A stretch of 39,775 nt of DNA, taken from positions 1 through 39,775 of the IMG/VR virus record IMGVR_UViG_3300009506_000567; one strand, given 5' to 3'. Of the stretch, positions 1,966-36,584 are shown one piece after another. The position numbers and the translations under genes were made by a program. Every line of letters begins with the position of its first letter. The stretch's first letter is position 1. Source of the stretch: a virus. The notes below the pieces were generated by a model, which saw only the letters and a program-made list of their open reading frames with translations, did not search any database and was not told the origin of the DNA.

Positions 1966-2383
1966 GATAGCTTCTTATATCAGAGAAGACAGAGCCGCCA
2001 TAAACGCTATATCTGGAGCTGGTGGTGTGGGAGTTACAGAACTGGAAGTCCCAGCCCTAACCACTTCCTTAACAATAGGAACTGAGCTGGATGACTACAG
2101 TATCGAAGTAGTAATCATCTCTGGAGACGGAGCATCTACCCTCGATTCCATCCTCGGCGGAACCCAGGGGCAGATCAAGATCTTCGTATTCCAAGATGCA
2201 AACATAGACATGACCGATGGCACTAAAGCTGATGGTGAGTTCTACCTAAACCACCTCCCTGCTCTGTCAGACTTCGACCCACAACAGGATGATGTTCTAG
2301 CACTGGTCAACGTAGGTGGTGACGCTGGTGCTACATCCGATGGATACTGGAAAGAGCTGTACAGAACTATTTCCGTGAAATAG
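1919..2383 (+). CDS. Predicted beta-rich head decoration or fibre-like protein
   Basis: A 154-residue protein with a short helical N-terminus (about 1-35) and then a beta-rich body, including GGTQGQIKIFVFQDANIDM and a glycine-rich C-terminal strand region. This style of short, strand-rich protein next to capsid genes is typical of decoration proteins or head fibre domains, which is an inference from position and composition. The start is supported by GGAGGA 10 bases upstream. The stop TAG overlaps the first base pairs of the 25-bp palindrome at 2382. Other possibilities are a minor tail or head-closure protein. Confidence 0.55.
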   Translation: MTLNANEPNDQRLVSEIASYIREDRAAINAISGAGGVGVTELEVPALTTSLTIGTELDDYSIEVVIISGDGASTLDSILGGTQGQIKIFVFQDANIDMTDGTKADGEFYLNHLPALSDFDPQQDDVLALVNVGGDAGATSDGYWKELYRTISVK

Positions 2384-2406
2384 TTGCTTAAATTATTTAA
2401 TTAACT
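2382..2406. repeat. 25-bp border palindrome, copy 1
   Basis: Half-sites AGTTGCTTAAAT and AGTTAATTAAAT (each read inward) around a central T. It overlaps the TAG of the gene ending at 2383 and precedes the GGAGGT of the scaffold-like gene. Confidence 0.9.
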
Positions 2407-2419
2407 AATGGAGGTTAGC

Positions 2420-3238
2420 ATGGGTACAAAAGAAGAGATAGGTCAAATGCTTGATTCGTTGAATAAGTTCGACACTTCACAAACAGATCCACCAATAACA
2501 GAGGCACCTGAGTCTCCATCTACCGACCCTCCAGCTGAGGAGATCGTAGACGTTGATACTCTAACCGTGCCTCCTAAAACGGAAGCCCCTGCCACTGAGC
2601 CGCCAGTGGAGGACGAACTAACTACGTACAAAAATAAAGTCGAGGCTCTTCAGAGGAGAGTGGACGAACTGTCAAAACCAAAAGCCACAAAGCCACCTTC
2701 GACGAAAGCTCCTTCTACCGATCCACCTATTTCCGAAGAGGACTTTCTCAAGGACACTGACCTGGAGGACATCTCACGTGACCCATCTGCTTTCAACAAA
2801 CTACTAAACTCTATCTACTCCAAAGCAGTAAGGACAGCTAGAGATGAAATCAGAAAGGGAAGCGAGACTACCCTCAGGTCAATCCCTGACATAGTCAAGA
2901 CCAACGTAGCCATCCAAGCTGACTTGCTAAAAAAGAGTGAAGCGTTCTACGAAAGCAACAAAGACCTAAAACCATTCAAGAAAGTCGTCGCTGCTGTGTT
3001 CGAAGAAATCTCAGCGGCTAATCCAGATAAAACCTTCGACGAGATTCTACCAGAGGTTGGAAAGGAGGCTAGGAAGAGACTAGAACTGGTTCACGAAGCT
3101 ACTCAACATAAATCTGTTGACAAAGATAACCCTCCACCTTTGCCTCGTAAGAAAGGTGGAAGAGTCCAACAACCTAAACCGGACACTAGTTCACTGCAGT
3201 CTGAAATCGAGGCAATGAACAAAGTTGTCCGACCATAA
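2420..3238 (+). CDS. Capsid scaffold-like protein with Thr/Pro-rich repeats
   Basis: About 272 residues, highly charged, with no hydrophobic core pattern in the N-terminal third. This position directly before the major capsid gene and the charged helical C-terminal half (DEIRKGSETTLRSIPDIVKTN onward, to the basic KKGGRVQQPKP tail) fit an internal scaffolding protein. Residues about 20-105 carry an unusual series of T-x-P-P or T-x-A-P units (TDPP, TEAP, TEPP, TKPP, TKAP), probably a disordered linker, with a short heptad stretch (YKNKVEALQRRVDEL) between blocks. I chose ATG 2420 rather than ATG 2408, because GGAGGT at 2410-2415 is correctly spaced only for the later codon. The scaffold role is inferred from context. 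Confidence 0.6.
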   Translation: MGTKEEIGQMLDSLNKFDTSQTDPPITEAPESPSTDPPAEEIVDVDTLTVPPKTEAPATEPPVEDELTTYKNKVEALQRRVDELSKPKATKPPSTKAPSTDPPISEEDFLKDTDLEDISRDPSAFNKLLNSIYSKAVRTARDEIRKGSETTLRSIPDIVKTNVAIQADLLKKSEAFYESNKDLKPFKKVVAAVFEEISAANPDKTFDEILPEVGKEARKRLELVHEATQHKSVDKDNPPPLPRKKGGRVQQPKPDTSSLQSEIEAMNKVVRP

Positions 3239-3251
3239 CTGGAGGTAACCA

Positions 3252-3674
3252 ATGCTTGAGGATAGATTCGCGCAACACGACAAGGAAGTCGTGGACAAGT
3301 ATCATGATCCAGTGAACGCAGACTATGAAATGTCTGTTCGGGATTATGTACTTCGTCCAAGCAACGATGTGGAGGGTGGTGGAAATATCACTGTCACACT
3401 TCCTCCTGTCGCCGAAGCCAAGGGGCGTATCTACAGTATCGTAGCTAGAAACGCCGACGCTGTAAACACTATCACTATCGAAGACAACAACGACGATAGT
3501 GAATGCTGGCTTGGCGACATAGTGATGGATGGCAAGTGCGACCGCCTCCTTCTCTACAGTGACGGCCTCTGCTGGTTCCCGATGTGGGAGCCTGGATGGC
3601 CTGGAATGGCGACAACTTCACCTCCTGGTACGAGTCATGCTCCTACGACTCTATTGACCACTGAGGCTGCATAA
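3252..3674 (+). CDS. Predicted capsid-associated beta protein with Thr/Pro tail
   Basis: A 140-residue protein. Residues about 40-115 form a strand-rich domain (GGGNITVTLPPVAEAKGRIYS, then LLLYSDGLCWFPMW). I have seen this pattern in short phage structural domains that occur alone or at the ends of fibres. The last 25 residues are rich in Thr, Ser and Pro (TTSPPGTSHAP), like the linker of the preceding scaffold-like protein. It lies between scaffold and major capsid genes with a GGAGGT site at 3241-3246, so a head decoration role is likely but unproven. Confidence 0.55.
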   Translation: MLEDRFAQHDKEVVDKYHDPVNADYEMSVRDYVLRPSNDVEGGGNITVTLPPVAEAKGRIYSIVARNADAVNTITIEDNNDDSECWLGDIVMDGKCDRLLLYSDGLCWFPMWEPGWPGMATTSPPGTSHAPTTLLTTEAA

Positions 3675-3688
3675 CCTTAACCCTTAAC

Positions 3689-3713
3689 AGATAATTAAAT
3701 CATTTAATTATCT
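3689..3713. repeat. 25-bp border palindrome, copy 2
   Basis: This is the only perfect copy: both half-sites are AGATAATTAAAT around a central C. It sits between the gene ending at 3674 and the capsid gene, upstream of AGGAGGA at about 3720. Confidence 0.9.
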
Positions 3714-3734
3714 TTCAAATAGGAGGAAACAACT

Positions 3735-5036
3735 ATGTTTCTCGGAATGCGTGGAACAGGGGATTGGGTAGACGACCAGCGTCCTGAATCTTGGAGACAG
3801 CAAATCCTCTACCTGTACCCAAACGGAATGGCTCCTTTAACCGCTATCCTCTCAATGATGGGATCTACTCGCGTAACCGACCCTCGGTTCCACTGGTGGA
3901 CTCAAGTCCAGTCCACAGTGCAAGGAGCAGTAGCAGGCGTCTACACTATCGCCGACCTCTCCGTCGCCTACGCCGGGGGCGGAGTCGCTGGTGACACGGT
4001 CTTCGTTCAAGTCACCACTGTCCTTGCTAACAGAATCAGACAGGGTCACCAAATCCTTCTCCGTGACGAGTCTGACTGGCGAGTAGATGTCAACGGCAAG
4101 ATCACCGAAGTTCATCGTGGAACTACCAACTCTGTCCTTGCCGTGAAGCTGTTGGAGGCTGACGACAACTCTCCCGACCATGATCTTCAACACTGTGACA
4201 ACTTCAAGATCATCGGTAACTTGAACCCTGAAGGCGGCGAGATGCCTGATGCAATCGCTCTAGATCCATCCGAGGTATACAACTATACCCAAATCTGGCG
4301 TACGCCTCTTTCTCTCACTCGTACCGCCCTCAAGACCTCCCTCCGCACTCCTGATGCATATCAGAAGGCGAAGTCCGAGGCTCTTGAGATGCACTCTTGG
4401 GAAATGGAACTGTCGTTCCTGTGGGGAATTCGTACTAGCAACATTGGAGACAATGGAAAGCCCGAACGAACCACTATGGGCGTCATCAACTTCATCCGCC
4501 AGTTTGCTGCTGCCAACTGTGACGACTACACCCTGAACGCTGACTACGCCGGCCTCGCCTGGAACGCAGCAGGCGGTGGTGGAACCTGGCTTCGTGCCTA
4601 CCTGGAGCAAATCTTCCGCTACGGAGCTGAAGAGAAGCTCTGCCTGGCAGGCTCTGGGGCCTTTCTCGGAATCGAAGCCCTCGCTATGGCTGAGGGTCAG
4701 ATGAACCTTCAACCTGGAATCTCCATGTATGGGATGAAGTTGAGGGAATGGGTCACTCCGTTCGGTTCGATCTACATGAAAACTCATCCGCTGTTCAGCT
4801 TCGACGCAACCACTCGCAACATGATGATTATTCTTGAGCCGAAGGAACTTGAGTACAAGTACATCGACGACACTCAGTTCTACGGTGAGAGCTCTTCCAA
4901 GTCTCACCCATCTGGCTACGGTCAGCGTCGGATTGACGGACTGAATGAGGAGTTCCTGACGGAGGCTGGACTTGAATTTGGACTACCGCAGAAATGCGCA
5001 GTCCTCAACGGAGTTGGCCTGGATAACGACCTGTAG
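3735..5036 (+). CDS. Major capsid protein (HK97-fold type predicted)
   Basis: A 433-residue protein that should build the icosahedral shell. The N-terminal segment (YLYPNGMAPLTAILSMMG) followed by DPRFHWWTQ resembles major capsid families of the DUF5309 kind, in which an N-arm leads into a beta-rich body; a later helix-rich part (about 235-310) and the strand-rich C-terminus (SIYMKTHPLFSFD, then MMIILEPKELEYKYI) fit the HK97 A-domain. Its codon use is enriched in C-ending codons compared with neighbouring genes, as expected for a highly expressed gene. It has a strong AGGAGGA site, and a rho-independent terminator follows at 5061-5086. The product is likely the most abundant virion protein. 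Confidence 0.8.
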   Translation: MFLGMRGTGDWVDDQRPESWRQQILYLYPNGMAPLTAILSMMGSTRVTDPRFHWWTQVQSTVQGAVAGVYTIADLSVAYAGGGVAGDTVFVQVTTVLANRIRQGHQILLRDESDWRVDVNGKITEVHRGTTNSVLAVKLLEADDNSPDHDLQHCDNFKIIGNLNPEGGEMPDAIALDPSEVYNYTQIWRTPLSLTRTALKTSLRTPDAYQKAKSEALEMHSWEMELSFLWGIRTSNIGDNGKPERTTMGVINFIRQFAAANCDDYTLNADYAGLAWNAAGGGGTWLRAYLEQIFRYGAEEKLCLAGSGAFLGIEALAMAEGQMNLQPGISMYGMKLREWVTPFGSIYMKTHPLFSFDATTRNMMIILEPKELEYKYIDDTQFYGESSSKSHPSGYGQRRIDGLNEEFLTEAGLEFGLPQKCAVLNGVGLDNDL

Positions 5037-5060
5037 CTAACCTCCTCCCACGGCCGACGA

Positions 5061-5086
5061 CTGGGCCTAGAATGGGCTAGGCCCAG
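5061..5086 (+). terminator. Rho-independent terminator after the capsid gene
   Basis: A perfect 10-bp GC-rich stem, CTGGGCCTAG at 5061-5070 with CTAGGCCCAG at 5077-5086, encloses a six-base loop and is followed by an AT-rich tract. It lies 25 bases after the capsid stop, as expected for a terminator or transcript stabiliser that isolates capsid mRNA. The downstream U-run is interrupted, so termination may be partial. Confidence 0.8.
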
Positions 5087-5109
5087 TTAATTAAATCATT
5101 TAAACATCT
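5085..5109. repeat. 25-bp border palindrome, copy 3
   Basis: Half-sites AGTTAATTAAAT and AGATGTTTAAAT around a central C. It begins inside the last two bases of the capsid terminator stem. Confidence 0.9.
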
Positions 5110-5122
5110 TAAGGAAACAGAT

Positions 5123-5485
5123 ATGAAAAAGATTGCTATAGCACTGATGTTGATCTTCCTAGCAGTCCAAGTAATGGCTGCTAACACAGTGGTCACTACG
5201 TTGTATGGAGTAACTATAACTGACATAGACTCTGACTACACCACAGGCACTCCTGTCAGAGTGTGGTCTATTAAATTCTATCCATCTGCGATCACTGACT
5301 ATGTCACGATCAAATTATCCACAGATGCTGGTCAGGTGATAACGGTCCTGCGTAACACCATCAGCCTTGATCCTGTGATAGAATACTTTCCTCCCGACTT
5401 CAGGGCTACCCTGGTACTAGACTATAGTGACAGTTCTATAGACACTGGTGCTGATGCTAGGGTTGTGATATTATATAGAAGGTAG
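5123..5485 (+). CDS. Small protein with Sec signal peptide, beta-rich
   Basis: A 120-residue protein whose first 19 residues are a textbook Sec signal peptide: lysines at 2-3, a hydrophobic core (IAIALMLIFLAVQVM) and an AxA-like end (VMAANT). The remainder is strand-rich (TVVTTLYGVTITDI, VIEYFPPDF). No family was recognised. A signal peptide is unexpected for a virion protein that assembles in the cytoplasm, and the next gene has one as well. It may be an exported accessory or a chaperone-like partner of the beta-helix protein. AAGGA lies 9 bases upstream. Confidence 0.65.
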   Translation: MKKIAIALMLIFLAVQVMAANTVVTTLYGVTITDIDSDYTTGTPVRVWSIKFYPSAITDYVTIKLSTDAGQVITVLRNTISLDPVIEYFPPDFRATLVLDYSDSSIDTGADARVVILYRR

Positions 5486-5501
5486 ATTGGAGACGAATTA
5501 G

Positions 5502-8108
5502 ATGAGAAGAATACTATCGCTAGCTATAATCTTGACAGTATTTATCTCCTTTTCTACAGCAGATGCTGTGGTTAAGTACTGGTACGTGCGACCGGCTACT
5601 GGAGAGTATGGGGCAGAGGATGGAACGTCTTATGCTACTGCCTGGGATGGTTTAGCAAGCATCGTTTGGGCGAGTGTTGATCCTGGAGATTACGTGTTCC
5701 TCGACCCTGACAATGGCATCTCTTCAACTGCTGGCTTCAATAATGAGTACACTGCTATGACTGTAGGAGGATCAGCTGGTAATATCACGACCATCACAGC
5801 CTACGATACATCTAATCCCCCTACGCTTAATCGGTTACAAAGTATTCCAAATACTGGGTGGGCTGGCCCTGATGGTGATGGATGCTACACTTTAACTGTA
5901 TCGCAGCCATATGCCTTCTTTGAAGATAGTATAGCTTTGGGCTACGGATACACAACTGATTCCACCCTATGGGGAGCCAATCAGAATTGGGCGTACTCAG
6001 GTGGTGTGCTTTATTACAAACCAACATCTGGGACACCTGGGAGTCATATCTTAACTGGATATGGGCACAGTGCAATAAATATATCTACTGATGTGGACTA
6101 TGTGACATTCTCCCACTTAAATTTTGAGAAGATGATGTTTGCGCTGAAGTTCCCTGGGACAACTGCCCAACTCGATGAAATTACAGTTGAAGATTGCAAC
6201 TTCAATAATGTAAAGACTGCTTTCTACGTTATACCAGATAATACTAATGCAGTCAATGATATTATTGTGCAGAGGTGCAATTTTAACTACGTTAGTCTTG
6301 GAGCTGTGACGGCGCCTGCTGGTTACGGACCTGAGCAAATAACAGGAGTGTTAATTGACAGTAATACTTTTACATATGGAGGTATAGTCAATAGCTCTTC
6401 TAGCAAAGAGTGGTACTACGCAACTTGCCGATATTATAGCGGTGCATATCAGTGCACTAATGCTGGATATATGGACCATGAGCAGATATCAGTCGCCAAT
6501 TCAAAGGATGTTGTTATCTCAAACAATTACATAAGCGGCAGGACACGCGGAATTGTTACTAACGTTCAAAGTAATATGTATGGCACCAATATAAGGATCA
6601 ACAATAACAAGCTTGTTGATGTAACCTACACTGGCATTTTTACGACTTCGGCCACGGCCGAAGTGGGCGTCGATCATTACAAAGATATATTCATCAATAA
6701 CAATCTGTTTGTAAATTGTGGCAATGGAGAAGGCATAGATGCAGGCTTCTACTCACAAAGCCAACGAGCGGCTATTCAGTTTGGAGGATATCTGGAAGGC
6801 ACAGGTGTTGATTTCGCTCTAATCGTTGGCAATACATTCTATGGCAATATTATAGGGATAAACTGGGCTAACGGATATGCAGAACATGTAACAGCAGAAG
6901 ACAATATCTTCTATAATCATGAGTACGGTGGAATAAAACTCGGAGATGACATTTCTACTTACGGATTGGATTATAACTTGTATTTCTCTAGCGACTCTGA
7001 AAAAGTACCACTTCTAATGCGTGAGTACGATGCTGCATCGCTCTTCGATAATGTTTTCCAGCTAGATGATGCCGCTGGCACATCAGCAGTAGCAAATGAT
7101 ATAGAGTGTCATAACTGTCCAACAGCAGGAGATGCAGGAACTTGGCGCAACACGTCAGACAATACTGCTAGAACAATTGTCTCTGGTGATATTGTCTCGT
7201 CTGGGATTCATGGGAGTGCACTAACTACTGGGAGTGGAGGGACTGGAGTTGCCTATGTTGAGGTTAATGATGCAGATATCATAAATTCTGGTTTCTGGTA
7301 TGAGGGTGCTGTACAGATCTGGGCACGTCCTACGTTCGCTTACAATGTATCAACATATCAAACGCTGTTTTGTGCTTACTATAGCAATGACAACAACCGC
7401 ATTCGAATTAGTTATAATTCAACTGATGACAAATTCCAGGTTGAGCACATTATTGGTGGGACTAATGTTACTCTACAAACAGCTGCTTTTACATCTGATA
7501 CTGACCTACAAAAGTGGCACCACTTTGTTCTTTACTGGGATCAGGCGACGAACTTAGTTGATTTCTTTGTCGATGGCGTAGAATATTCTAGTACGAGTCA
7601 GACAGGCTCCACGGCTGGTGTAGCAGACATGCGTGTCTATATAGGGTTAAACTACAGTGGTGCTGCATACAACACGCCAGGGGCTTATGACATTGATGAA
7701 TTCAAAGTTGGACGTGGTGCTACGCCGAGGGAACTATATTATACGTCCAGCTCATGGGCGAATTATCTAACCAAGTTTCCGAGTGATGACCAGAACTCAC
7801 TGTCTACAGACCCTGTACTATCTAGGCCATGTGAACTTATTGGTGGAGTAGTTATATGTGATCTTAGTCTAAGTCCTAGCTCGCCAGCTATTGATGCTGG
7901 TATTCCAGTCGATGGGATACACGTCTGGGGCTCTTTCAAGGACGCAGCAGGATTTGAATATATAACTGGTGCCGCTCCTGATATAGGTGCTTACGAGAGA
8001 CCATCTGGTGGAATTGCAGGATTGGACAGACAAAAGATGGGAATGTCTATGGGGCCTTCTGGGGTAGCTATTTGCCCTTCAACTGACGCAAACTGCTACG
8101 TACCATAG
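5502..8108 (+). CDS. Right-handed beta-helix protein with inserted LamG domain and signal peptide (predicted tailspike or secreted glycan-binding protein)
   Basis: An 868-residue protein. Residues 1-22 form a Sec-type signal peptide (MRRILSLAIILTVFISF, then TADA). Residues about 23-480 read as a right-handed parallel beta-helix with repeating N-rich turns (INNNKLVDV, FINNNLFVNCGN, VGNTFYGNIIGINW, AEDNIFYN). About 555-740 is a LamG/concanavalin-like jelly roll (YVEVNDADI, then KWHHFVLYWDQ, VDFFVDGVEYSS, YDIDEFKVGRGA). The C-terminus returns to a beta-helix end typical of secreted bacterial proteins (SPAIDAG, PDIGAYE). In a phage this architecture usually means a receptor-binding or polysaccharide-degrading spike, but the signal peptide is more like a captured host exoprotein. 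No catalytic residues could be identified. Confidence 0.7.
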   Translation: MRRILSLAIILTVFISFSTADAVVKYWYVRPATGEYGAEDGTSYATAWDGLASIVWASVDPGDYVFLDPDNGISSTAGFNNEYTAMTVGGSAGNITTITAYDTSNPPTLNRLQSIPNTGWAGPDGDGCYTLTVSQPYAFFEDSIALGYGYTTDSTLWGANQNWAYSGGVLYYKPTSGTPGSHILTGYGHSAINISTDVDYVTFSHLNFEKMMFALKFPGTTAQLDEITVEDCNFNNVKTAFYVIPDNTNAVNDIIVQRCNFNYVSLGAVTAPAGYGPEQITGVLIDSNTFTYGGIVNSSSSKEWYYATCRYYSGAYQCTNAGYMDHEQISVANSKDVVISNNYISGRTRGIVTNVQSNMYGTNIRINNNKLVDVTYTGIFTTSATAEVGVDHYKDIFINNNLFVNCGNGEGIDAGFYSQSQRAAIQFGGYLEGTGVDFALIVGNTFYGNIIGINWANGYAEHVTAEDNIFYNHEYGGIKLGDDISTYGLDYNLYFSSDSEKVPLLMREYDAASLFDNVFQLDDAAGTSAVANDIECHNCPTAGDAGTWRNTSDNTARTIVSGDIVSSGIHGSALTTGSGGTGVAYVEVNDADIINSGFWYEGAVQIWARPTFAYNVSTYQTLFCAYYSNDNNRIRISYNSTDDKFQVEHIIGGTNVTLQTAAFTSDTDLQKWHHFVLYWDQATNLVDFFVDGVEYSSTSQTGSTAGVADMRVYIGLNYSGAAYNTPGAYDIDEFKVGRGATPRELYYTSSSWANYLTKFPSDDQNSLSTDPVLSRPCELIGGVVICDLSLSPSSPAIDAGIPVDGIHVWGSFKDAAGFEYITGAAPDIGAYERPSGGIAGLDRQKMGMSMGPSGVAICPSTDANCYVP

Positions 8109-8131
8109 TTGTTTAAATCATTTAAACATCT
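8107..8131. repeat. 25-bp border palindrome, copy 4
   Basis: Half-sites AGTTGTTTAAAT and AGATGTTTAAAT around a central C. It overlaps the TAG stop of the beta-helix gene. Confidence 0.9.
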
Positions 8132-8140
8132 GGTGATGAG

Positions 8141-8863
8141 ATGAACTTACTAGAGCTTAGAAGAAAATTCAGAGACCTCTCAGGAAGATTCGACTTAGTT
8201 AACGAGGACGGAAGCGACAATGGGGCTAACTTCTTCATCAACGAGGGTAGGAAGTTCCTTGATCGCCTGGATGAAACTCAGAAATCCTGGGCCTCGTGTT
8301 TTAGGTTTATCAATGTAGGAGGGTTCAGTGCGCAGTTCCCCTACTGCCGCGCGATTAAGGAAGTCTGGGTCGCATCAACCACAGAGCGTTGGCAGCTTGT
8401 TAAGATAAGTCTGCAGGACCTAATAGCATCCTACATGGCTGACCTTCCAGGAGAACGTACTACTGGAACTCCAGCATACTATTCTCCTGCACTAACTAGA
8501 TACTCTCCTGCTAACGCTGACTTGGCTGACTTAGAGTCATTCCTAGGATGGGTCGATATACCGTCTGGGCCCTCTCACGAATATAATTCTATCCTGATAA
8601 ATGTACCTACTGACACAAAAATAGTGGCTGATATCAAAGGGTTATTCTATTCAGCTGAACTATCTAACGACAATGACTCTAACCACTGGTCAGTTAACAA
8701 CCCTTCACTCCTAGTAATGGCTGCTATGAGGTTTACTGAGGTATTCAACAGGAACAGACAGGGAGTTAATGACTGGGACACTGCAATAGCAGTCGAGATG
8801 AAACAACTAGGAATGGACCTTGTTGAAGAGATAATCTCCGAAGTTGATCAAATGGAGGGATGA
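8141..8863 (+). CDS. Tail tubular protein A-like adaptor (T7 gp11 type)
   Basis: A 240-residue protein that probably forms the ring joining the portal to the tail nozzle. The start (LLELRRKFRDLSGRFDLV, then ADNGANFFINEGRKFLDRL-like helix) and the C-terminal helix with MAAMRFTEVFNRN are the usual helical scaffold of this family; the middle is a beta insert with the common phrase IKEVWV. It is followed two genes later by a B-type tubular protein, the normal order. The stop TGA overlaps the next start (ATGA). Confidence 0.75.
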   Translation: MNLLELRRKFRDLSGRFDLVNEDGSDNGANFFINEGRKFLDRLDETQKSWASCFRFINVGGFSAQFPYCRAIKEVWVASTTERWQLVKISLQDLIASYMADLPGERTTGTPAYYSPALTRYSPANADLADLESFLGWVDIPSGPSHEYNSILINVPTDTKIVADIKGLFYSAELSNDNDSNHWSVNNPSLLVMAAMRFTEVFNRNRQGVNDWDTAIAVEMKQLGMDLVEEIISEVDQMEG

Positions 8864-9372
8864 TGAGACAACCTATATTCGTCAGTAATTCTCCAATAGA
8901 TGAGAAAAGAATATCTTTTATTGAAAGGACTGTGTCCAAGCTAGCTCGTAGATCAGTTAGCGTAGCTAAAGCATATCTCTCTCCTTACCCAATTTCTGGA
9001 TGTGTGGCAGGGGAGGACGTCAAAGGTGACGTACTCAAGTACATGTTTGCATCTGGAGGGAAGATAGCTAAGGGTAAGATAGTTATCGTCGACACCTTGA
9101 AACAAGGAGTTACGGTAACTATCAGAATAGAAAGTAACAAGACTGGAACCACAAAGAGCTATCTGATCGAGAAGAAGGAAATCACTGTCGAGCCAGATAT
9201 CTTGGTCAATTCTGGTGACAGACTAACAATCTCTCTGAACCCCACATCTGTTGAGGATAAGATCACGGAGGTCTGGATGTGCTTCCTTTGGGTTCCAAAA
9301 GTCAAGGATGCAGATATAAAACAATTCCTGATCGACGAGCTGGAGAGTCAAGATGATACTGAAGAACAATAG
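8860..9372 (+). CDS. Beta-sandwich virion protein, function unknown
   Basis: A 170-residue protein placed between the two tail tubular genes. A short helical N-terminus is followed by alternating strands (KIVIVDTLKQGVTVTIRIES, KEITVEPDILVNSGDRLTI) and an acidic C-terminal tail (ELESQDDTEEQ). The start ATG overlaps the preceding TGA, with GGAGG six bases upstream of the second ATG and one base before the first; either could be used. The position suggests a minor tail component; the sequence alone does not tell what it binds. Confidence 0.6.
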   Translation: MMRQPIFVSNSPIDEKRISFIERTVSKLARRSVSVAKAYLSPYPISGCVAGEDVKGDVLKYMFASGGKIAKGKIVIVDTLKQGVTVTIRIESNKTGTTKSYLIEKKEITVEPDILVNSGDRLTISLNPTSVEDKITEVWMCFLWVPKVKDADIKQFLIDELESQDDTEEQ

Positions 9373-9414
9373 CAGATGAGGTGGCCATCCCTGTCGGTCG
9401 ATAGGAGGTAGCAA

Positions 9415-9612
9415 ATGCCAGCAGCATTTAACAAGTGAGTTGCCCAAGGGGGCCGAGTTCGGACCAAGAAACTTGAGGGCGGAAAGTATGTTCACGTCTG
9501 CTTCAAAGGCGGAAAGAGTCACGCTGGAGAAGTTAAGACGAAGAAGTCTCACCACTCAGCTCAGGACGGAACGTTCCTGGAGGAGAGAAGAAGGAGGTTC
9601 AAAACCAAGTGA
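9415..9612 (+). CDS. Small basic protein gene interrupted by an in-frame TGA (codon 8)
   Basis: ATG 9415 has an excellent AGGAGGT site 6 bases upstream. The frame reads MPAAFNK, then TGA at 9436-9438, then 57 well-formed residues (VAQGGRVRTKKLEGGKY, then HVCFKGGKSHAGEVKTKK) to TGA at 9610-9612. That stop overlaps the GTG start of the tubular B gene (GTGA), the coupling seen for real gene pairs. No start codon exists in frame just after the TGA. From memory, small phage proteins of this look carry Cys at this position, one base change from TGA. Possibilities are stop readthrough, selenocysteine-type recoding, a point-mutated pseudogene or a sequence error. Confidence 0.6.
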
Positions 9613-11009
9613 GGGAACTTGAACTTACCATATATGATGCTATTAGGGCAGGGCTAAGTCCTCTAGACGTAACTCCTGTTAACTCGGACTTCCTTTCCAA
9701 ACTCCTAGGATTCAGGTGTGGAAAGGGCCAGCCAGAGCTGTATGATGGATCTAATAACCCACTACCCACTGCCACTGATCTATACTACAACTGGCCCTTT
9801 CCGCAATTTATTAGTGGAAAAAGGTACAATGTCTTGGTTGTTAGGGACTCAGTCTTCCAGCATGAAGATAAAGTGTATATAGTAAGTGACGACCACTCTA
9901 CCGTAACAGAGATCTTCGCAATCGACGCTCTGACGTTTGGCGTGGGGACGCTGATGGAAGTAGCCGACTTCGGCGCGTATGCTATAATGGTTAATGGAGT
10001 TATAATAATCTACTGGGACCCTGATATTGGGGATTGGAGAGAGATAACTGGAAGTGACAACATTCCGTTGATCAGGACTATATGTAACTTCAAGGGTCAG
10101 GCTGTAGGTGGGAATGTAGTTAACGGGTGGAAGTCGCTAGACGAGACCTTCTATGTATGGTCTAGGATAGGGTATCTAAACTTCTATCCAGAGAGAACCA
10201 ACGAAGCCGGATTTCGTAGGTGTCCTTACGGAGGAGAAGTTTACCATGCCAGAAGGTTAGGTGACTCAGTTATCGGATACTCTTCTAAGGGAATCTGTAT
10301 GATGACTCCAGTAGGTTCTCCAGCTGCGACGTTCAGGTTTGACGAACTAAGTGACGTCGGACTGATTAACCAAGGAGCTATGAATGGTAGCTTGGATGGA
10401 CAGATCTACGTAGGAAGTGACCATAGACTCTATGGGGTATCCAGACAGGGAGTTAAGGAACTTGGGTACAAGAAGTTCATCGAGGAGCTGGATGGGGAAG
10501 ATATTATAATAACTTACGACAAGGCTAATAAGGATTACTATATAGGGAACAGTGAGAAGACCTTCTTACTCTCACCTTATGGAATGTCAGAGGTCCCACA
10601 ACACCCTTCCGCTGTGTGGAGTATAAATGGTAACACCTACATGCTTCCTGATGCGGAAGATAATTACCTAGCTGAAATAAACAGTGAGGTAATCAACTTC
10701 GGCTACGGAGGGCAGAAAACTATCTTCTCAATGGAGTCAGACATATTTACTGCTATGGACCCGCAGGTTGCGGTGGACTATACCTACGACCTGATGCATT
10801 ATGAGTCGACGAAGTTCGTTCCTCTCAACTCTCAAGGTATCGCATCTATTATTGCATCAGGTAACGCATTCAGATTGAAAATTAGATTTGACCCAACCTA
10901 CTTAGGAACCAATATAAGTTACATAAAGGCCAGATACAAAATGACAGATCTCCGCGGGCTGCGTGGAATCTATGCACCGCCTCCTAGAGGACAGTCTTAT
11001 GTTGACTAA
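9609..11009 (+). CDS. Tail tubular protein B-like nozzle protein (T7 gp12 type)
   Basis: A 466-residue protein predicted to form the tail nozzle. Repeated blade-like units (VYIVSDDHSTVTEIFAID, YAIMVNGVIIIYWDP, RLGDSVIGYSSKGICMMTP, GQIYVGSDHRLYGVSRQGV, YYIGNSEKTFLLSPYGM) give the beta-propeller pattern seen in such proteins. It starts with GTG, overlapping the TGA of the upstream small gene, and has AGGAGG 11 bases upstream. It is shorter than T7 gp12 (about 790 residues), so parts of the platform domain may be missing. The A-type protein lies three genes upstream. Confidence 0.65.
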   Translation: MRELELTIYDAIRAGLSPLDVTPVNSDFLSKLLGFRCGKGQPELYDGSNNPLPTATDLYYNWPFPQFISGKRYNVLVVRDSVFQHEDKVYIVSDDHSTVTEIFAIDALTFGVGTLMEVADFGAYAIMVNGVIIIYWDPDIGDWREITGSDNIPLIRTICNFKGQAVGGNVVNGWKSLDETFYVWSRIGYLNFYPERTNEAGFRRCPYGGEVYHARRLGDSVIGYSSKGICMMTPVGSPAATFRFDELSDVGLINQGAMNGSLDGQIYVGSDHRLYGVSRQGVKELGYKKFIEELDGEDIIITYDKANKDYYIGNSEKTFLLSPYGMSEVPQHPSAVWSINGNTYMLPDAEDNYLAEINSEVINFGYGGQKTIFSMESDIFTAMDPQVAVDYTYDLMHYESTKFVPLNSQGIASIIASGNAFRLKIRFDPTYLGTNISYIKARYKMTDLRGLRGIYAPPPRGQSYVD

Positions 11010-12343: not shown

Positions 12344-12366
12344 TTAATTAAATCATTTAAACAACT
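12342..12366. repeat. 25-bp border palindrome, copy 6
   Basis: Half-sites AGTTAATTAAAT and AGTTGTTTAAAT around a central C. It overlaps the TAG stop of the gene ending at 12343. Confidence 0.9.
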
Positions 12367-12380
12367 TGGGAGAAACAAAG

Positions 12381-18625: not shown

Positions 18626-18648
18626 ATAATTAAATAATTTAATTAACT
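18624..18648. repeat. 25-bp border palindrome, copy 7 (convergent junction)
   Basis: Half-sites AGATAATTAAAT and AGTTAATTAAAT around a central A. It fills the whole gap between the two convergent operons and overlaps both stop codons, so it cannot be a promoter for either neighbour. Confidence 0.9.
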
Positions 18649-22344: not shown

Positions 22345-22369
22345 AGTTGTTTAAATTATTTAAACATCT
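22345..22369. repeat. 25-bp border palindrome, copy 8
   Basis: Half-sites AGTTGTTTAAAT and AGATGTTTAAAT around a central T. The TAA stop of the ParB-methyltransferase gene lies inside it, and the GGAGGT of the polymerase gene abuts it. Confidence 0.9.
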
Positions 22370-24351: not shown

Positions 24352-24376
24352 AGTTGTTTAAATTATTTAATTATCT
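24352..24376. repeat. 25-bp border palindrome, copy 9
   Basis: Half-sites AGTTGTTTAAAT and AGATAATTAAAT around a central T. It contains the TAA stop of the SQD1-like gene, and GGAGG for the next gene follows. Confidence 0.9.
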
Positions 24377-26448: not shown

Positions 26449-26473
26449 AGGTATTTAAATCATTTAAACAACT
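26449..26473. repeat. 25-bp border palindrome, copy 10
   Basis: Half-sites AGGTATTTAAAT (the most divergent arm) and AGTTGTTTAAAT around a central C. It contains the TAA stop of the Sak4-like gene. Confidence 0.85.
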
Positions 26474-28659: not shown

Positions 28660-28684
28660 AGACGTTTAAATTATTTAAACAACT
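28660..28684. repeat. 25-bp border palindrome, copy 11
   Basis: Half-sites AGACGTTTAAAT and AGTTGTTTAAAT around a central T. It overlaps the TAG stop at 28683-28685, and GGAGG for the next gene follows it directly. Confidence 0.9.
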
Positions 28685-28976
28685 ATTCAAACAAATGATT
28701 ACGCTCTATGTACTCACCTTCTTTATACAGCAACAAGTTCAATGTCCCATGCTTCCTCGCAAACACAGAACATGCTATAGCGTTCATGACAGAAAGAGCG
28801 CAGAGAAGCACGTAATCTTCCTTGCACGAGTTCCGCATCGCGTCGCTAAACTTGCGTACCATGTCGTTGGTTGCAAAGCGGTTCATGCGTCCTTCGGTGC
28901 AGAAGACTAACTTACCATACTTCTCTGCGCTCGAAAAGTCGTGACTACTCTTGTTTACCACATAGACCTTAGCCAT
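28683..28976 (-). CDS. Conserved-looking phage protein, function unknown
   Basis: A 97-residue protein (VYVVNKSSHDFSSAEKYGKL, FCTEG, then YVLLCALSVMNAIACSVFAR and LNLLLYKEGEY). I recall this pattern from uncharacterised proteins of several unrelated phages; it looks like a compact alpha/beta domain. GGAG is 7 bases from the ATG. It leads the small-gene part of the operon and overlaps its upstream neighbour by 8 bases. Confidence 0.65.
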   Translation of the reverse strand: MAKVYVVNKSSHDFSSAEKYGKLVFCTEGRMNRFATNDMVRKFSDAMRNSCKEDYVLLCALSVMNAIACSVFARKHGTLNLLLYKEGEYIERNHLFE

Positions 28977-29184: not shown

Positions 29185-29512
29185 CGTCGCCTCCTTCCAT
29201 GTCATCTAATGTATGCTTAGGTACGGAGGGAGTCCTGAGCTTGATTCCTTCTAGAATACCCAGTGGAGCCGTAGACTTCACATGCTCCTTTGGTCTCCTG
29301 TCACTGAACTCCATTCGTGGGAGAGGTTGCCTGGCCTCTTCTTTCTTAGCTACAGGCTTACTATCCTCTGCGTCAGTGATGTTTTCCAGATTGGAAGCAT
29401 CACAGACATGCGGATCTACGAGCTCCACTATGATACGCTTGTTCTTCAACGCCTTCCTAGACGAACGTACCATAGTCCCACAGCGAGAACAGAATAGCTC
29501 ATTCTTCATCAT
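29174..29512 (-). CDS. Zinc-finger-like small protein with acidic tail
   Basis: A 112-residue protein. The N-terminus has a zinc-binding pair (LFCSRCGTMV) and a later VCD cysteine; the middle is polar and the end acidic (DDMEGGDDEV). ATG 29512 and ATG 29509 are both near GAGGAGG. It overlaps genes on both sides by 11-14 bases. It is possibly an adaptor that recruits proteins through a zinc knuckle; no family was recognised. Confidence 0.55.
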   Translation of the reverse strand: MMKNELFCSRCGTMVRSSRKALKNKRIIVELVDPHVCDASNLENITDAEDSKPVAKKEEARQPLPRMEFSDRRPKEHVKSTAPLGILEGIKLRTPSVPKHTLDDMEGGDDEV

Positions 29513-29819
29513 CCCCCTCCTCGTCAGGCCAGATGGCCACTTTCAGCTGTGCCCAGGGCTTCTCCGCTGGGTTGACCTCTGTGACAACACAGATCAGAGG
29601 TCTAATAGACAGCTCTGCAGACACGTCAGCTGACAACTTAGCTGGTACATAGCCGACCATGAAGTCGCCGAAGTGAAGCTTGATAGCGTTTGGGTCGTAC
29701 TTGTTCGTCGGCTCTGGCTCCATAGGCAGGCTGTCACCAACTTTGATGTTATCTATACACTTATGAAGTTCGTGGAACTTCACTCCTGCCACGTAGAACT
29801 CGTACAGTCCTTCACTCAT
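29499..29819 (-). CDS. HIRAN-domain protein
   Basis: A 106-residue stand-alone HIRAN domain. The family signature is visible: YVAGVKFHE, then KVGDSLPMEPEPTNKYDPNAI and MVGYVPAKLSAD. HIRAN domains bind DNA ends, notably 3' ends at stalled forks, and occur in HLTF-type helicases as well as in phage early genes. The acidic tail (DEEGDDEE) overlaps the next gene. Placed with ligase and nuclease genes, it probably assists replication or repair. Confidence 0.75.
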   Translation of the reverse strand: MSEGLYEFYVAGVKFHELHKCIDNIKVGDSLPMEPEPTNKYDPNAIKLHFGDFMVGYVPAKLSADVSAELSIRPLICVVTEVNPAEKPWAQLKVAIWPDEEGDDEE

Positions 29820-30087: not shown

Positions 30088-30919
30088 TCGTCACCTCCAC
30101 AAATACAGGGAATCTAGGAACTCCCTTCCCTGCTGTTAAGTGTTGGTATTTAACTCTAGCAATTCTTCCTTTAAGTACTTCACGATTGCGCCACAAGTCT
30201 TCTCTAGTTCTTCTATCAAAACCTGTGCCGACTCGAAAGACTCCTCCGTCCCCACTTCTAAGTACCAGCGCACCGAGGGAATCTTTTGGGGTTCCGTCTG
30301 CCGATACTTCCTCTTCACTTCCCAGGATAACATACTCATCCTCCTTCTTTGGCTTAAACTTCATCACCCACGTGGAGCGTTTACGCTCGTAGGGTGCATC
30401 TGCGTGACGAACTATAATCCCCTCAAATCCTAGCTTGATAAAGTTATCATATACCTTCATCACGTCGTCTAACGACTCAGCTACAGAGAACGTAGTTCGC
30501 CACAGTGGTTCATCCATCTTCACCGTCCACAAACTCCTCAATCTTTCAGCTTGTGACCCTTCATCTATAACATCGAAGATGTGGTACTGGATGGATTCAA
30601 AGTCTGGATGAACATTTGTGGTTCGACTGGTGATGGAAACTATCTGCTCGAAACTATACCCGTGACAATATAGTTCTCCATCAAACTCCTTGTGAGGCAG
30701 CTGTATTTTACAGGCTTGGTTTATATGAGGGACGGAGAAGATGACATTTTCCTCAGACGACAACAGTAAGAAGTCACCATTCTCCAGTGGCACTGCCCTA
30801 CACCGTACTCCATCATACTTAGGTTGGACGATGTAGGGAGGTTGCCACTTTGCTAGCCTCTTTTCTTCGAAGGGATAAGCTTTCATTATCCCTTTCCAAC
30901 GCTGCCACTTAGCTGTCAT
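30077..30919 (-). CDS. ATP-dependent DNA ligase
   Basis: A 280-residue minimal nucleotidyltransferase ligase. Motif I is PKYDGVR with the AMP-accepting Lys34; motif III EFDGELY; IIIa YHIFDV; IV EGIIVR; V WVMKFKP. An OB-fold domain follows (GALVLRSGDGGVFRVGTGFD, RVKYQHLTAG). It should seal nicks in replicating phage DNA. I prefer ATG 30919, because AAGGAG is 7 bases upstream of it, while the 30943 start lacks a site. It overlaps the preceding small gene by 11 bases. Size and motifs are like T7-type phage ligases, with no extra DNA-binding domain. Confidence 0.85.
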   Translation of the reverse strand: MTAKWQRWKGIMKAYPFEEKRLAKWQPPYIVQPKYDGVRCRAVPLENGDFLLLSSEENVIFSVPHINQACKIQLPHKEFDGELYCHGYSFEQIVSITSRTTNVHPDFESIQYHIFDVIDEGSQAERLRSLWTVKMDEPLWRTTFSVAESLDDVMKVYDNFIKLGFEGIIVRHADAPYERKRSTWVMKFKPKKEDEYVILGSEEEVSADGTPKDSLGALVLRSGDGGVFRVGTGFDRRTREDLWRNREVLKGRIARVKYQHLTAGKGVPRFPVFVEVTSDS

Positions 30920-31142
30920 AGCTACTCTCCTTAAGCTCCTCATAGGCCTGCACGAGGGAGTCTCTAAACTCGACTAGGTCTTTCTCGGATTGGATATAAA
31001 GAGTAATACATGGATGTTCGTAGTGTTTGCCAGAACTGGTTATCCTGACTGTTATAGGCCAGCCGCCGGAGGGATCAAGAGAGATTGATGCTTTGGGTGG
31101 ACTTCCTGCGTCACAGAAGAATGATACTTCGTAGAACCTCAT
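30909..31142 (-). CDS. Small beta-rich protein, function unknown
   Basis: A 77-residue protein (RFYEVSFFCDAG, ASISLDPSGGWPITVRIT, then helix LVEFRDSLVQAYEELKE). It is the first gene of the long replication operon after the terminator at 31236-31276, with AAGGAG 8 bases from its ATG. No family was recognised. Confidence 0.6.
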   Translation of the reverse strand: MRFYEVSFFCDAGSPPKASISLDPSGGWPITVRITSSGKHYEHPCITLYIQSEKDLVEFRDSLVQAYEELKESSYDS

Positions 31143-31164: not shown

Positions 31165-31189
31165 AGTTAATTAAATCATTTAAACAACT
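31165..31189. repeat. 25-bp border palindrome, copy 12
   Basis: Half-sites AGTTAATTAAAT and AGTTGTTTAAAT around a central C. It lies between the minus-strand terminator (31236-31276) and the first gene of the replication operon, not on a stop codon. Confidence 0.9.
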
Positions 31190-33507: not shown

Positions 33508-33532
33508 AGATGTTTAAATTATTTAAACAACT
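33508..33532. repeat. 25-bp border palindrome, copy 13
   Basis: Half-sites AGATGTTTAAAT and AGTTGTTTAAAT around a central T. It contains the TAA stop of the gene at 33519, and AGGAGG for the next gene abuts it. Confidence 0.9.
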
Positions 33533-33671
33533 TCTTCCACAATCTATTCAACTCCCTTTCCGAGTTACCTCTCCTCGACCTCACTAGGTCAATCTTCTCT
33601 GAGTCTGTTAGTCTGTCATACCTCTTTTGTCTCTCTTCTGCCTCGATCCTCTTTTGCTCTTTGGACTTCAT
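33519..33671 (-). CDS. Small charged helical protein, function unknown
   Basis: A 50-residue Arg/Glu/Lys-rich helix (KSKEQKRIEAEERQKRYDRL, then DSEKIDLVRSRRGNSERELN). ATG 33671 is preferred over the upstream GTG/ATG choices, because AAGGAG lies 8 bases before it. It overlaps the previous gene by 56 bases in another frame, which is a long overlap, so one of the two may have a different end in reality. Confidence 0.5.
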   Translation of the reverse strand: MKSKEQKRIEAEERQKRYDRLTDSEKIDLVRSRRGNSERELNRLWKKLFK

Positions 33672-33813
33672 CGGCTGTCTCCTTTCCACCTTTATAACAC
33701 ACACTAACATTCAACCCCTTCTCGTTCTTACAACTTTGACAGCAGTTGTAAAGACGACCTTGGTCATCTCGGCAGGTTATGTGAGTGACCTCCCCACAAA
33801 ATGCACACTTCAT
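33616..33813 (-). CDS. Small cysteine-rich zinc-finger-like protein
   Basis: A 65-residue protein with CAFC at 3-6, then CR, NCCQSC and a further Cys (about 39), which fits a treble-clef or zinc-ribbon fold in the first 30 residues. The tail (DEVQRAKEDRGRRETKE) is charged and overlaps the next gene. GGAGGTAGATGA is upstream. It is the first gene after promoter P2 (33886-33914). Confidence 0.6.
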   Translation of the reverse strand: MKCAFCGEVTHITCRDDQGRLYNCCQSCKNEKGLNVSVCYKGGKETADEVQRAKEDRGRRETKEV

Positions 33814-34303: not shown

Positions 34304-34328
34304 AGTTGCTTAAATAATTTAAACAACT
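34304..34328. repeat. 25-bp border palindrome, copy 14
   Basis: Half-sites AGTTGCTTAAAT and AGTTGTTTAAAT around a central A. It overlaps the TAG stop of the gene at 34327. Confidence 0.9.
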
Positions 34329-35034
34329 ACATATCCTCCAACTTCTCATCTGCCTCCTTCATCCTCCTAACATTCTCCTCAACATCTACAGTGGCCTCAT
34401 CCTTCCTATATGGCTTACTAGGATCATACAAAGGTGTGTTGTCTGGCTCTCTCTGTAACCTGTCCCTAACCTTCTCGGCTTGCAACTTTCTATCCAACTC
34501 TCTTATCTCTCCTCTACTCATCCCCGTAACCTTCTCATACACTTCATCAGGTACATATTCACTTCTACTCTCGTGAACTGCTATCTCCCTCATATCCCTA
34601 CTACCCTCACCCCTAACAACGCTTCCAGCTATTTCTCTCCTTTGCTCTGTCAACACTGCATTGTGTAGTGTATTATTCTTCCCTCTACTCCCATACTTAG
34701 TATCCTCCAACTTTATCCTATACTTCCACCTCAGCATATCTCTAGCTGCCACTGAATCATCTACCATATCTACCTCACCACTTCTTACTAAATGATCTAC
34801 TAACACCCTAATCCCTTCCTGTACTACTTCACTCAGATACTTCGTCCTCTCATTTGCATCTAGCCATACACTAAGCGTAGCCAGATATCTACTCTCCATC
34901 CATACTTGCACGGGTACGTCTTTCTTATACGATACTGGCATAATCATAGCATTACCCCTAGTCTCGTTCTCTACCCTGACACGCTGTCTATATCTCCTCT
35001 GCCTAACTCTATTACTCTCTGCATAGTCACTCAT
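34327..35034 (-). CDS. Possible ribbon-helix-helix DNA-binding protein
   Basis: A 235-residue, highly charged protein. The N-terminus is Arg-rich (RVRQRRYRQRVRVENETR). Residues about 38-85 read strand-helix-helix (VPVQVWMESRYLATLSVWLD, then TKYLSEVVQEGIRVLVDHLV), as in ribbon-helix-helix repressors or plasmid partition regulators. The C-terminal 120 residues are polar and probably helical (SRGEIRELDRKLQAEKVRDR). It could be an early regulator of phage promoters or a binder of the 25-bp palindromes, which is a guess. GGAGGTAGATT precedes the ATG. Confidence 0.5.
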   Translation of the reverse strand: MSDYAESNRVRQRRYRQRVRVENETRGNAMIMPVSYKKDVPVQVWMESRYLATLSVWLDANERTKYLSEVVQEGIRVLVDHLVRSGEVDMVDDSVAARDMLRWKYRIKLEDTKYGSRGKNNTLHNAVLTEQRREIAGSVVRGEGSRDMREIAVHESRSEYVPDEVYEKVTGMSRGEIRELDRKLQAEKVRDRLQREPDNTPLYDPSKPYRKDEATVDVEENVRRMKEADEKLEDM

Positions 35035-35360: not shown

Positions 35361-35366
35361 AACCTA

Positions 35367-35539: not shown

Positions 35540-35575
35540 TCGCACAATATGTCAATGATACAATGATATAATGAC

Positions 35576-35730: not shown

Positions 35731-35757
35731 AAAAAAACCTAGCACAAACGTACTAGG
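35731..35757 (-). terminator. Rho-independent terminator
   Basis: Minus strand stem CCTAGTAC with GTGCTAGG (one G-U pair), loop GTTT, then seven T. It follows the gene ending at 35787 by 30 bases. Confidence 0.9.
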
Positions 35758-35786
35758 CTAGTTTGATCTAGACATGGTGTTCTAGG

Positions 35787-36188
35787 TTATTCATTAAATG
35801 CGGCTAGTTGCTGTGTGATGTACTCCGCTAGTGCTTTGTGGTCTTTCACGTCCACACCAGCAGCCACGGCAGACCGGAGCATTGCGGACCTAGGATCCTC
35901 GCTAGGTGCAGCAGCAGGTTTGAGCCACTTCACCTTGATTACAGACCCGTCGGTGATTTTGTGATAGTCCTTCCTAGCTCGTCCGTTCTGATACCTAATC
36001 ACGATGGTAGACATCGTGCTTTCGGCTAGAGACCGAATAGTTGCATCCATGTATTCAATTTCTAGCGTCACTGATTTGGACTCGGTAGATTCCTTGGATG
36101 GTTTGAACGAGCACTTTTTCCTCAGGGTGAACGTGTCTATTGGAAGCATCCAATGGTCACGGTTCAATCTAGTCAATTTGTCGGTCAT
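35787..36188 (-). CDS. Protein of unknown function with structured leader
   Basis: A 133-residue basic protein (HWMLPIDTFTLRKKCSFKPS, SVTLEIEYMDATIRSLAEST, then IVIRYQNGRARKDYHKITDG). The C-terminal 35 residues look helical and Ala-rich. It forms its own unit: promoter P5, a leader of about 190 bases with three or more hairpins, the gene, and a terminator at 35731-35757. Its ribosome binding site GAGGTGAAC can pair with GTTCACC further upstream in the mRNA, so translation may be controlled. CTAG is strongly enriched in and around it. No family was recognised. Confidence 0.65.
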   Translation of the reverse strand: MTDKLTRLNRDHWMLPIDTFTLRKKCSFKPSKESTESKSVTLEIEYMDATIRSLAESTMSTIVIRYQNGRARKDYHKITDGSVIKVKWLKPAAAPSEDPRSAMLRSAVAAGVDVKDHKALAEYITQQLAAFNE

Positions 36189-36189
36189 A

Positions 36190-36361
36190 GTTCACCTCGC
36201 CTAGATGGTTGGTGAACACCATGCCTAGACCCCGGATTTGCGTTGCTAGCGCTCGGCTAGGTCGTAAACCAACCTAGCCATCATAAATTGTCAATGAACG
36301 CCATCGGAACTAGACACATGCTGGTCTAGCCACGGCTCTAGGCCGATGTTCAATCCGATGG
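36190..36361 (-). promoter_or_regulatory. Structured mRNA leader with sequestered ribosome binding site
   Basis: Hairpins in the P5 transcript: GTTCACC/GGTGAAC (36190-36196 and 36211-36217) covering the ribosome binding site; GGCTAGGT/ACCTAGCC (36255-36262 and 36272-36279, loop 9); CTAGAC/GTCTAG (36310-36315 and 36324-36329); and an enclosing CCATCGGA/TCCGATGG (36301-36308 and 36354-36361). All stems are perfect. This could be a riboswitch, a protein-bound leader or an RNA thermometer. Confidence 0.6.
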
Positions 36362-36389
36362 TTTGTCAATGAGCTATGTTTATGATTCC

Positions 36390-36417
36390 ATCATATCACA
36401 ACCAACTAGTTTGTCAA
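36390..36417 (-). promoter_or_regulatory. Sigma70-type promoter P5
   Basis: Minus strand TTGACA (36412-36417), 16-bp spacer, TATGAT (36390-36395) preceded by TGTGA as in P1, P3 and P4. Confidence 0.75.
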
Positions 36418-36559
36418 CATATATTTTCGCTAGGCCGATGGGGGTAGTTCGTCCCATCTCGGCCCGGGTTAGCTCCCCCACATTTTGTAAGAAGTTTTAG
36501 ACAAATTACCATCATCGGGAAATTACACCGACTGCCACGCGTTCCGCGTGACACACGTT

Positions 36560-36584
36560 AGATGTTTAAATAATTTAAACAACT
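36560..36584. repeat. 25-bp border palindrome, copy 15
   Basis: Half-sites AGATGTTTAAAT and AGTTGTTTAAAT around a central A. It lies between the divergent transcription units, 25 bases upstream of the plus-strand -35 box. Confidence 0.9.

Follow-up and report, generated by a model that had tools for sequence, protein, structure and literature searches.

The window analysed here, 39,775 nucleotides in length, is an entire phage record of IMG/VR (IMGVR_UViG_3300009506_000567) that is classed as linear, such records often being fragments. It encodes a portal protein, a capsid protein of SU10 type, a primase-type protein, a DNA polymerase A, a ligase, Sak4-like and exonuclease-like proteins, and a fusion of a ParB-N domain with a DNA methyltransferase. 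ARAGORN detected no tRNA in the window, and megablast of its positions 1-20000 against named phages returned zero matches. Fifteen copies of a 25-bp palindrome, built from two 12-bp half-sites around one base, are scattered along this DNA. We propose that they are very probably binding sites of the ParB/Noc type read by the phage's own ParB-methyltransferase, as judged from the joint variation of protein and site among 53 phages.

A sequence-only reading of the window had reported the fifteen copies, and all were found. The palindromes (listed without strand), their predicted reader (with its helix-turn-helix, HTH) and one nearby promoter are arranged among the open reading frames (ORFs) as follows.

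Site 1, 2382-2406: between ORF 1919-2383 and a gene starting near 2420, on the stop codon.
Site 2, 3689-3713: 5' of the major capsid gene, the sole perfectly symmetric copy.
Site 3, 5085-5109: 3' of the major capsid gene.
Site 4, 8107-8131: behind the gene of an 868-amino-acid lectin-domain protein, on its stop codon.
Site 5, 11438-11462: within the 3' end of ORF 10963-11490, directly 5' of ORF 11474.
Site 6, 12342-12366: on the stop codon of ORF 11474-12343.
Site 7, 18624-18648: at the convergent junction between the gene of a 1680-amino-acid protein and the primase-type gene, on both stop codons.
Site 8, 22345-22369: 5' of the DNA polymerase gene, on the ParB-methyltransferase stop codon.
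Site 9, 24352-24376: on the stop codon of an epimerase-like gene.
Site 10, 26449-26473: on the stop codon of the Sak4-like gene; the relative L125 has a site at the same border.
Site 11, 28660-28684: on the stop codon of ORF 28683-28976.
Site 12, 31165-31189: 5' of ORF 30909-31142, the ORF preceding the ligase gene.
Site 13, 33508-33532: among small minus-strand ORFs, on the stop codon of ORF 33519-33710.
Site 14, 34304-34328: on the stop codon of ORF 34327-35034, 39 bases 5' of a sigma-70-like promoter (34264-34236, minus strand).
Site 15, 36560-36584: in a divergent region, 25 bases ahead of the consensus promoter 36610-36638 (plus strand).
Predicted reader, 22360-23688, minus strand: PF02195 ParB nucleotide-binding fold at amino acids 9-94, HTH within amino acids 115-200, PF01555 at amino acids 233-431.
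Sigma-70-like promoter, 36610-36638, plus strand: 12/12 consensus bases, separate from the palindromes.

Exact matches to the pattern AGNNNNTTAAATNATTTAANNNNCT number 15 in the window, and none is gained there when up to three mismatches are tolerated. Shuffling left a mean of 0.23 matches (standard deviation 0.47, largest 2), and 15 was reached in none of 100 shuffles. Each of the 30 half-sites starts with AG and ends with TTAAAT, as had been described, with TTGC, GTAT and ACGT also occurring among their middles, and perfect symmetry is indeed limited to copy 2 (3689). Counting plausible ORFs, the ten copies said to overlap a stop codon do so (2382, 8107, 12342, 18624, 22345, 24352, 26449, 28660, 33508 and 34304); one of the ORFs concerned, 33519-33710, is small, and an eleventh overlap arises only if the doubtful ORF 36575-36802 is accepted. 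The copy at 18624 fills the convergent junction and covers both stop codons there. Around palindrome 15, divergent sigma-70-like promoters (12/12 on the plus strand, 11/12 on the minus strand) flank the site within 36390-36638, adjoining a TerS-like HTH gene.

The predicted reader unites a ParB fold, an HTH and an N4/N6 DNA methyltransferase in a single chain. Its N-terminal fold contains the GxRR and ENxxR boxes of ParB and Noc, and the methyltransferase fold has DPPY (residues 238-241) followed by FxGSG, the order of the beta class. The DPPY motif is kept in 51 of 53 proteins, and conservation reaches at least 94% of the 53 phages for each of the GxRR, ENxxRK and GSG residues. An AlphaFold2 model built from 25 sequences (mean predicted local distance difference test score 80.7, predicted template modelling score 0.56) places HTH helices at 138-145 and 149-164, so that residue 149 would open the recognition helix. 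In Foldseek searches, one part of the model matched N4/N6 methyltransferases (top CcrM and N4C methyltransferases) and the other part Noc and ParB, while the family profile matched Noc over positions 2-193 (1.4e-17). A central HTH reading a palindromic site, as in ParB and Noc, is thus suggested at the sequence level by the predicted helices together with the covariation described below. The same ParB-HTH-methyltransferase was detected in all 36 relatives searched; the capsid or polymerase through which relatives were found is likewise common to them. In two distant relatives a further ParB-like match, shorter than the first, lies in a separate open frame (G026:36875-37393 and G035:23193-23609).

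Across viral contigs the strict window pattern occurred in 114 stretches, 65 of which matched a window protein at more than 60 bits by tblastn. A slightly wider pattern, AGNNNNTTAAANNNTTTAANNNNCT, gave 183 exact matches in 46 contigs (45 relatives, near-duplicates included, and the window with 15) and none in shuffled sequence. At least two exact matches were present in 36 of the 46; one copy per locus is due to selection, because the loci were found via the motif. Relatives reuse the same borders, for example 5' of the polymerase gene, next to the capsid gene on either side, and where the primase gene meets its convergent neighbour. The nearest named relative is Desulfofustis phage LS06-2018-MD01 (OP947158), with 49% identity in the capsid, 44.5% in the polymerase and 42% in the ParB-methyltransferase. 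The window motif was not found in OP947158, which has nine copies of a palindrome of its own, CTATGTCCCAANTTGGGACATAG. Three of them occupy borders used in the window (the Sak4-like gene side, the primase 3' end and a place within the 3' end of the gene 12 homologue), and a fourth stands 5' of the portal gene, a border outside the window record that is used by the window's relatives. L125 has its own palindrome at the place equivalent to site 5.

Polymerase and capsid profiles were then used to find more loci (best 80 each), and a motif-free hunt for repeated palindromes revealed one palindrome family with at least three copies in 115 of the 148 loci of at least 6 kb and in 92 of the 108 loci of at least 12 kb, as against 0-4 after shuffling. 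All 32 whole or near-whole phage records, the window included, possess a 25-bp interrupted palindrome family with 6-24 copies each (shuffled seeds 1-6). Twenty-eight of them bear G handles and come from 36 relatives chosen by record length, mostly from loci where a family already showed; partial records are G023 (40,000 of 40,491 bases) and two IMG/VR contigs (42,666 of 44,804 and 41,911 of 45,757). The palindromes are mostly private to a phage: weight matrices produced no cross-hit in 924 of 992 ordered genome pairs, and phages with similar motifs do cross-match, with up to 20 hits. A conserved linker for module exchange, one of the earlier ideas, is not supported because the palindrome sequence usually differs between phages. 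No comparable family was seen in the distant relatives Mel-JY34, VS-ABTNL-3, PaP2 and Kuura. Vibrio phage VS-ABTNL-3 (L127, MF497422) contains CAATCG-N6-CGATTG at 174, 6569, 23360 and 38801, one of these at a convergent junction; they are possibly terminators or that phage's version of the site.

The strongest link between reader and site comes from covariation. The set comprised 66 sources, 64 with protein, and 53 phages after an 85% identity filter; polymerase-centred loci entered only with at least four copies. At residue 149, Gln goes with A at half-site position 7 in 6 of 6 phages, His or Arg with G in 7 of 8, and any other residue with T in 39 of 39. Lys, His or Pro at this residue is accompanied by G at position 6 (37/37), Lys at residue 150 by G at position 8 (3/3), and Asp at residue 148 by G at position 9 (3/3). 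When about 1,777 columns of the ParB-methyltransferase, polymerase, primase, Sak4-like and exonuclease proteins were ranked, residue 149 was the top column for position 7 (z 10.8 vs 9.2 for the best control), residue 150 for position 8 (6.7 vs 6.0) and residue 148 for position 9 (10.3 vs 9.1). Residues 148-150 adjoin one another where the predicted recognition helix begins. Whether the outer pair is AG or CT varies with residue 158, yet also with the main clades. Since part of the covariation signal is shared ancestry, changes were mapped on a tree of the methyltransferase domain alone, with the HTH excluded and the residue classes set after the table had been seen. On this tree, residue 149 changes class 10 times, 8 of them on a branch where base 7 changes as well (p = 2.7e-8), and 5 of 7 changes coincide for residue 150 and base 8 (p = 1.2e-5). 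The covariation in 53 phages thus backs the idea, raised from the window, that the palindromes could be sites for the phage's ParB-like protein, acting as a dimer at the DNA level.

The predicted system resembles ParB and Noc in its ParB nucleotide-binding fold and HTH, its palindromic site and the same Gln-A and Arg-G pairing. It differs in that a methyltransferase replaces the C-terminal domain, no ParA was detected, and specificity usually changes from phage to phage. The specificity bases of parS are 13 bp apart, whereas those of the phage site, 25 bp long with a central base, are 12 bp apart. The Gln-A and Arg-G pairing emerged from the covariation ahead of any comparison with published structures, in which, according to the portions of the article drawn on, R173 of Caulobacter ParB forms a bond with guanine 1 of parS, as the corresponding Gln of Noc does with adenine 1 of the Noc-binding site, NBS (PMC7383237). 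NBS sites, as far as the excerpted sources describe them, are scattered like the phage palindromes. By hand alignment, residue 149 would be the specificity residue equivalent to ParB R173 and Noc Q158. This equation of 149 with 173 relies on where the helix is predicted to begin and on aligning ParB IGKSRSHVAN by hand with the family GxSxxxV pattern; across the HTH, HMMER aligns the family poorly with Noc. Searches for ParA, phage RNA polymerase (PF00940) and tyrosine integrases covered 31 of 37 records, possibly fragments. No PF13614 ParA exceeded the cut-off in the 31 records (one weak partial match in G016; controls 14/14; other ParA models were not sought), which speaks against the ParABS partition sites that had been considered.

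Placement and spacing add a second characteristic. Across the 32 genomes, 397 of 483 copies lie at gene borders as set by a crude gene caller. The mean coefficient of variation (CV) of the gaps is 0.53, compared with 0.90 for uniform placement, 1.02 for random gene borders, 1.08 for borders with a strand change or a gap of at least 15, and 0.86 for minimum-spacing borders. Spacing was more even than chance at the 5% level in 26 of 32 genomes under the uniform null, in 30 under random borders and in all 32 under strand-change/gap borders; as the genomes are related, these tests are not independent. The 451 gaps have a median of 2,665 bp. In 26 of 32 genomes the spacing is slightly more regular when measured in bases than when counted in genes. 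Compared with a background of 27%, border use reached 22/32 at the primase 3' end, 23/30 at the capsid 3' end, 18/32 at the polymerase 5' end and 16/26 at the TerS 5' end. The 0/31 sites counted 5' of the portal gene are uninformative because the portal of the window is cut short.

We consider it rather probable, if far from settled, that the sites of this ParB-HTH-methyltransferase load a sliding clamp. The HTH would read each half-site, with residues 149, 150 and 148 matching positions 7, 8 and 9 of the 12 bases. In the manner of ParB, Noc and KorB, a palindrome would be the loading point for two subunits, which would then shut as a nucleotide-gated clamp and travel along the DNA. As the sites are roughly evenly spread (median gap 2.7 kb), clamps sliding out from adjacent sites would between them reach all of the genome, and we moderately favour a role of the palindromes as spaced loading stations. 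The cargo of the clamp would be the methyltransferase, the least certain step; only DNA with the phage's own address would then be methylated throughout, for example as protection against host or rival nucleases. Even spacing, self-specificity and intact catalytic motifs together suggest clamp loading that spreads methylation over the phage's own genome, and we only tentatively name such self-methylation as the purpose. Each phage might possess a private, evenly spaced address at which alone its clamp methylase loads, so that its own genome would be methylated from one end to the other and no other DNA would be. By the same tentative reasoning, the system may serve as a self/non-self marking whose address code diverges between phages via the first residues of one helix.

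Several points weigh against this explanation. Evenness beyond chance is limited to 23 of 32 genomes under the minimum-spacing null, where three of the four genomes with 6-9 sites are not significant. Evenness could partly reflect the size of transcription units (gap CV 0.53 in bases, 0.60 in gene counts). Of the copies in the 32 genomes, 86/483 lie inside genes. Fewer than three copies were found in 33 of the 148 loci of at least 6 kb, including 16 of the 108 of at least 12 kb. The genomes are related and were mostly selected from loci with a known family, and gene calls were crude. In the covariation, G036 breaks the His-G rule, margins over the controls are narrow at positions 8 and 9, a polymerase column leads at position 6 (8.1 vs 7.0 for residue 149, which ranks second), and columns of other proteins lead at positions 3, 10 and 12; this control ranking covered positions 3, 6-10 and 12. 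The coupling of residue 148 to base 9 is weak on the tree, with 6 of 15 changes coinciding (p = 0.049). Clamp action is not assured either, since, according to the consulted parts of PMC12704722, some ParB folds fused to a methyltransferase bind ATP, and among 28 ParB-fold proteins tested, 17 showed no binding of a nucleoside triphosphate. In addition, the methyltransferase stands where a C-terminal dimerisation domain is usual.

The main rival is a transcription roadblock of the stoperator kind: the same protein on operator- or stoperator-type sites would mainly block or insulate transcription at gene borders, with the methyltransferase secondary. The mostly border-bound sites, which often cover a stop codon and adjoin the ribosome site that follows, would suit such a role, as would the use of certain borders above the 27% background (primase 3', capsid 3', polymerase 5', TerS 5') and the precedents of KorB and mycobacteriophage Rep, as far as the partially consulted sources present them. 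However, strong promoter-like sequences are far from most sites of the window. The sigma-70-like promoters matching at least 11/12 bases number four, all at 33.9-36.6 kb, one being 25 bases from site 15 and another 39 bases from site 14; elsewhere in the window promoter-like matches reach at most 10/12, near the shuffled number. Given this scarcity of strong promoters, long transcription units probably run across most of the sites. Genomes with 6-9 sites, moreover, remain evenly spaced under the uniform and border nulls (three of four do not under the minimum-spacing null), and a site falls within 250 bp of the estimated start of the reader gene in only 1 of 32 genomes. Stoperators are asymmetric and oriented with transcription, and the phage sites are palindromes. 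Lysogenic immunity is not indicated because no tyrosine integrase exceeded the cut-off in the 31 records (serine integrases were not sought). We regard the roadblock as rather unlikely.

Even spacing and mostly intergenic placement would also suit dispersed sites that organise, tether or condense replicating phage DNA in a Noc-like or nucleoid-like fashion, with the methyltransferase mainly a dimerisation or regulatory unit. The Noc-like fold and the NBS-like scattering, to the extent that the sources used in part describe it, point the same way, but the conserved catalytic motifs argue for use of the methyltransferase, and we hold this alternative to be improbable. Least credible by a wide measure are transcription signals, whether promoters of a phage RNA polymerase or RNA hairpins acting as terminators or processing sites. 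T7-like promoters, which have one sequence within a phage and different ones between phages, offer a parallel, and two weak 9/12 promoter-like matches overlap site 2. Nevertheless, PF00940 was absent from the 31 records (T7 as positive control, 1/1), a site lies near the primase 3' end in 22 of 32 genomes, and the convergent junction in the window needs no promoter. The proposed transcription start signal thus did not hold up: the four strongest sigma-70-like promoters stand apart from the palindromes, and only the two weak matches overlap copy 2. The argument already made against an RNA hairpin holds, as sense-strand A.C mismatches outnumber G.U pairs (336 vs 165) in the 409 of 665 unique sites that were oriented, ten named loci with doubtful motif sets and even-length sets being left out. 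The hairpin was rejected on this count, on a structure-only scan that gave no support and on the lack of any Rfam match within the window.

Among known systems, the operators of KorB on RK2 resemble the preferred clamp-loading explanation in that a ParB-type clamp acts at a distance. KorB is not known to have a methyltransferase domain. It further differs as a repressor working with KorA, whereas a repressor role in the phages is only hypothetical. According to the portion of PMC11790492 used, KorB reaches promoters up to 1.5 kb away, which is about half of the 2.7-kb median gap in the phages. Cluster A mycobacteriophages, as the consulted part of PMC6550527 describes them, have 20-30 stoperators per genome with one consensus per phage, and site and reader diverge together. 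The many genome-wide sites, the single consensus per phage and the co-diverging reader are shared with the present phages; in contrast, stoperators are 13-14 bp long, lack dyad symmetry, are bound by a monomer, are mostly oriented with transcription and belong to temperate phages. The closest parallel in domain composition is the work of Kaljevic et al. (2025; PMC12704722), which, in the portion consulted, reports fusions of ParB-CTPase with N6_N4 methyltransferase domains to be frequent in phages, perhaps for anti-defence or phage-host interaction. This is the same domain pair as in the predicted reader; the text examined gives no cognate DNA sites, HTH code or spacing rule, and the terms 'parS-like' and 'palindrom' are absent from the main text (the supplement was outside the scope). 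In the open-access literature that was searched, judged mostly by titles and the starts of abstracts, no DNA sites of phage ParB-methyltransferase fusions are described. Further literature was drawn on in part (PMC8429893, PMC10370329).

The analysis gives ParB-methyltransferase fusions a candidate DNA site and a putative natural recognition code from 53 diverged pairs, and it yields a clear hypothesis, namely a clamp that would deliver methylation to the phage's own genome. The many natural protein-site pairs lend themselves to the study of how DNA-binding specificity evolves, and the even spacing would provide a quantitative handle on the working range of such a clamp.

A genome scan for a host returned four loci (L366-L369), all in metagenome-assembled genomes, two of them named only 'bacterium', one Brevinema and one Candidatus Micrarchaeum. 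They are probably misbinned phage contigs and the names vary, and no host was therefore assigned. For the OP947158 phage, the part of its paper that was consulted derives hosts from CRISPR and links the MD01 phage to Desulfofustis through a spacer of less than 80% identity.

Other features of the window concern individual genes. ORF 34327-35034 is a ribbon-helix-helix candidate. In the DNA polymerase (19812-22334, minus strand), a domain of the uracil-DNA-glycosylase superfamily (PF03167, amino acids 7-170) precedes the exonuclease and polymerase A domains. A stand-alone HIRAN domain protein of 106 amino acids is encoded at 29499-29819 (minus strand) and has matches in many relatives. At 5123-8108 (plus strand), a two-gene module consisting of a small ORF and the 868-amino-acid Laminin_G_3 protein is bracketed by two palindromes. 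In several relatives the capsid gene is followed by gene 9 with a single site between them and without the two-gene module, which could be an insertion that carried in its own site.

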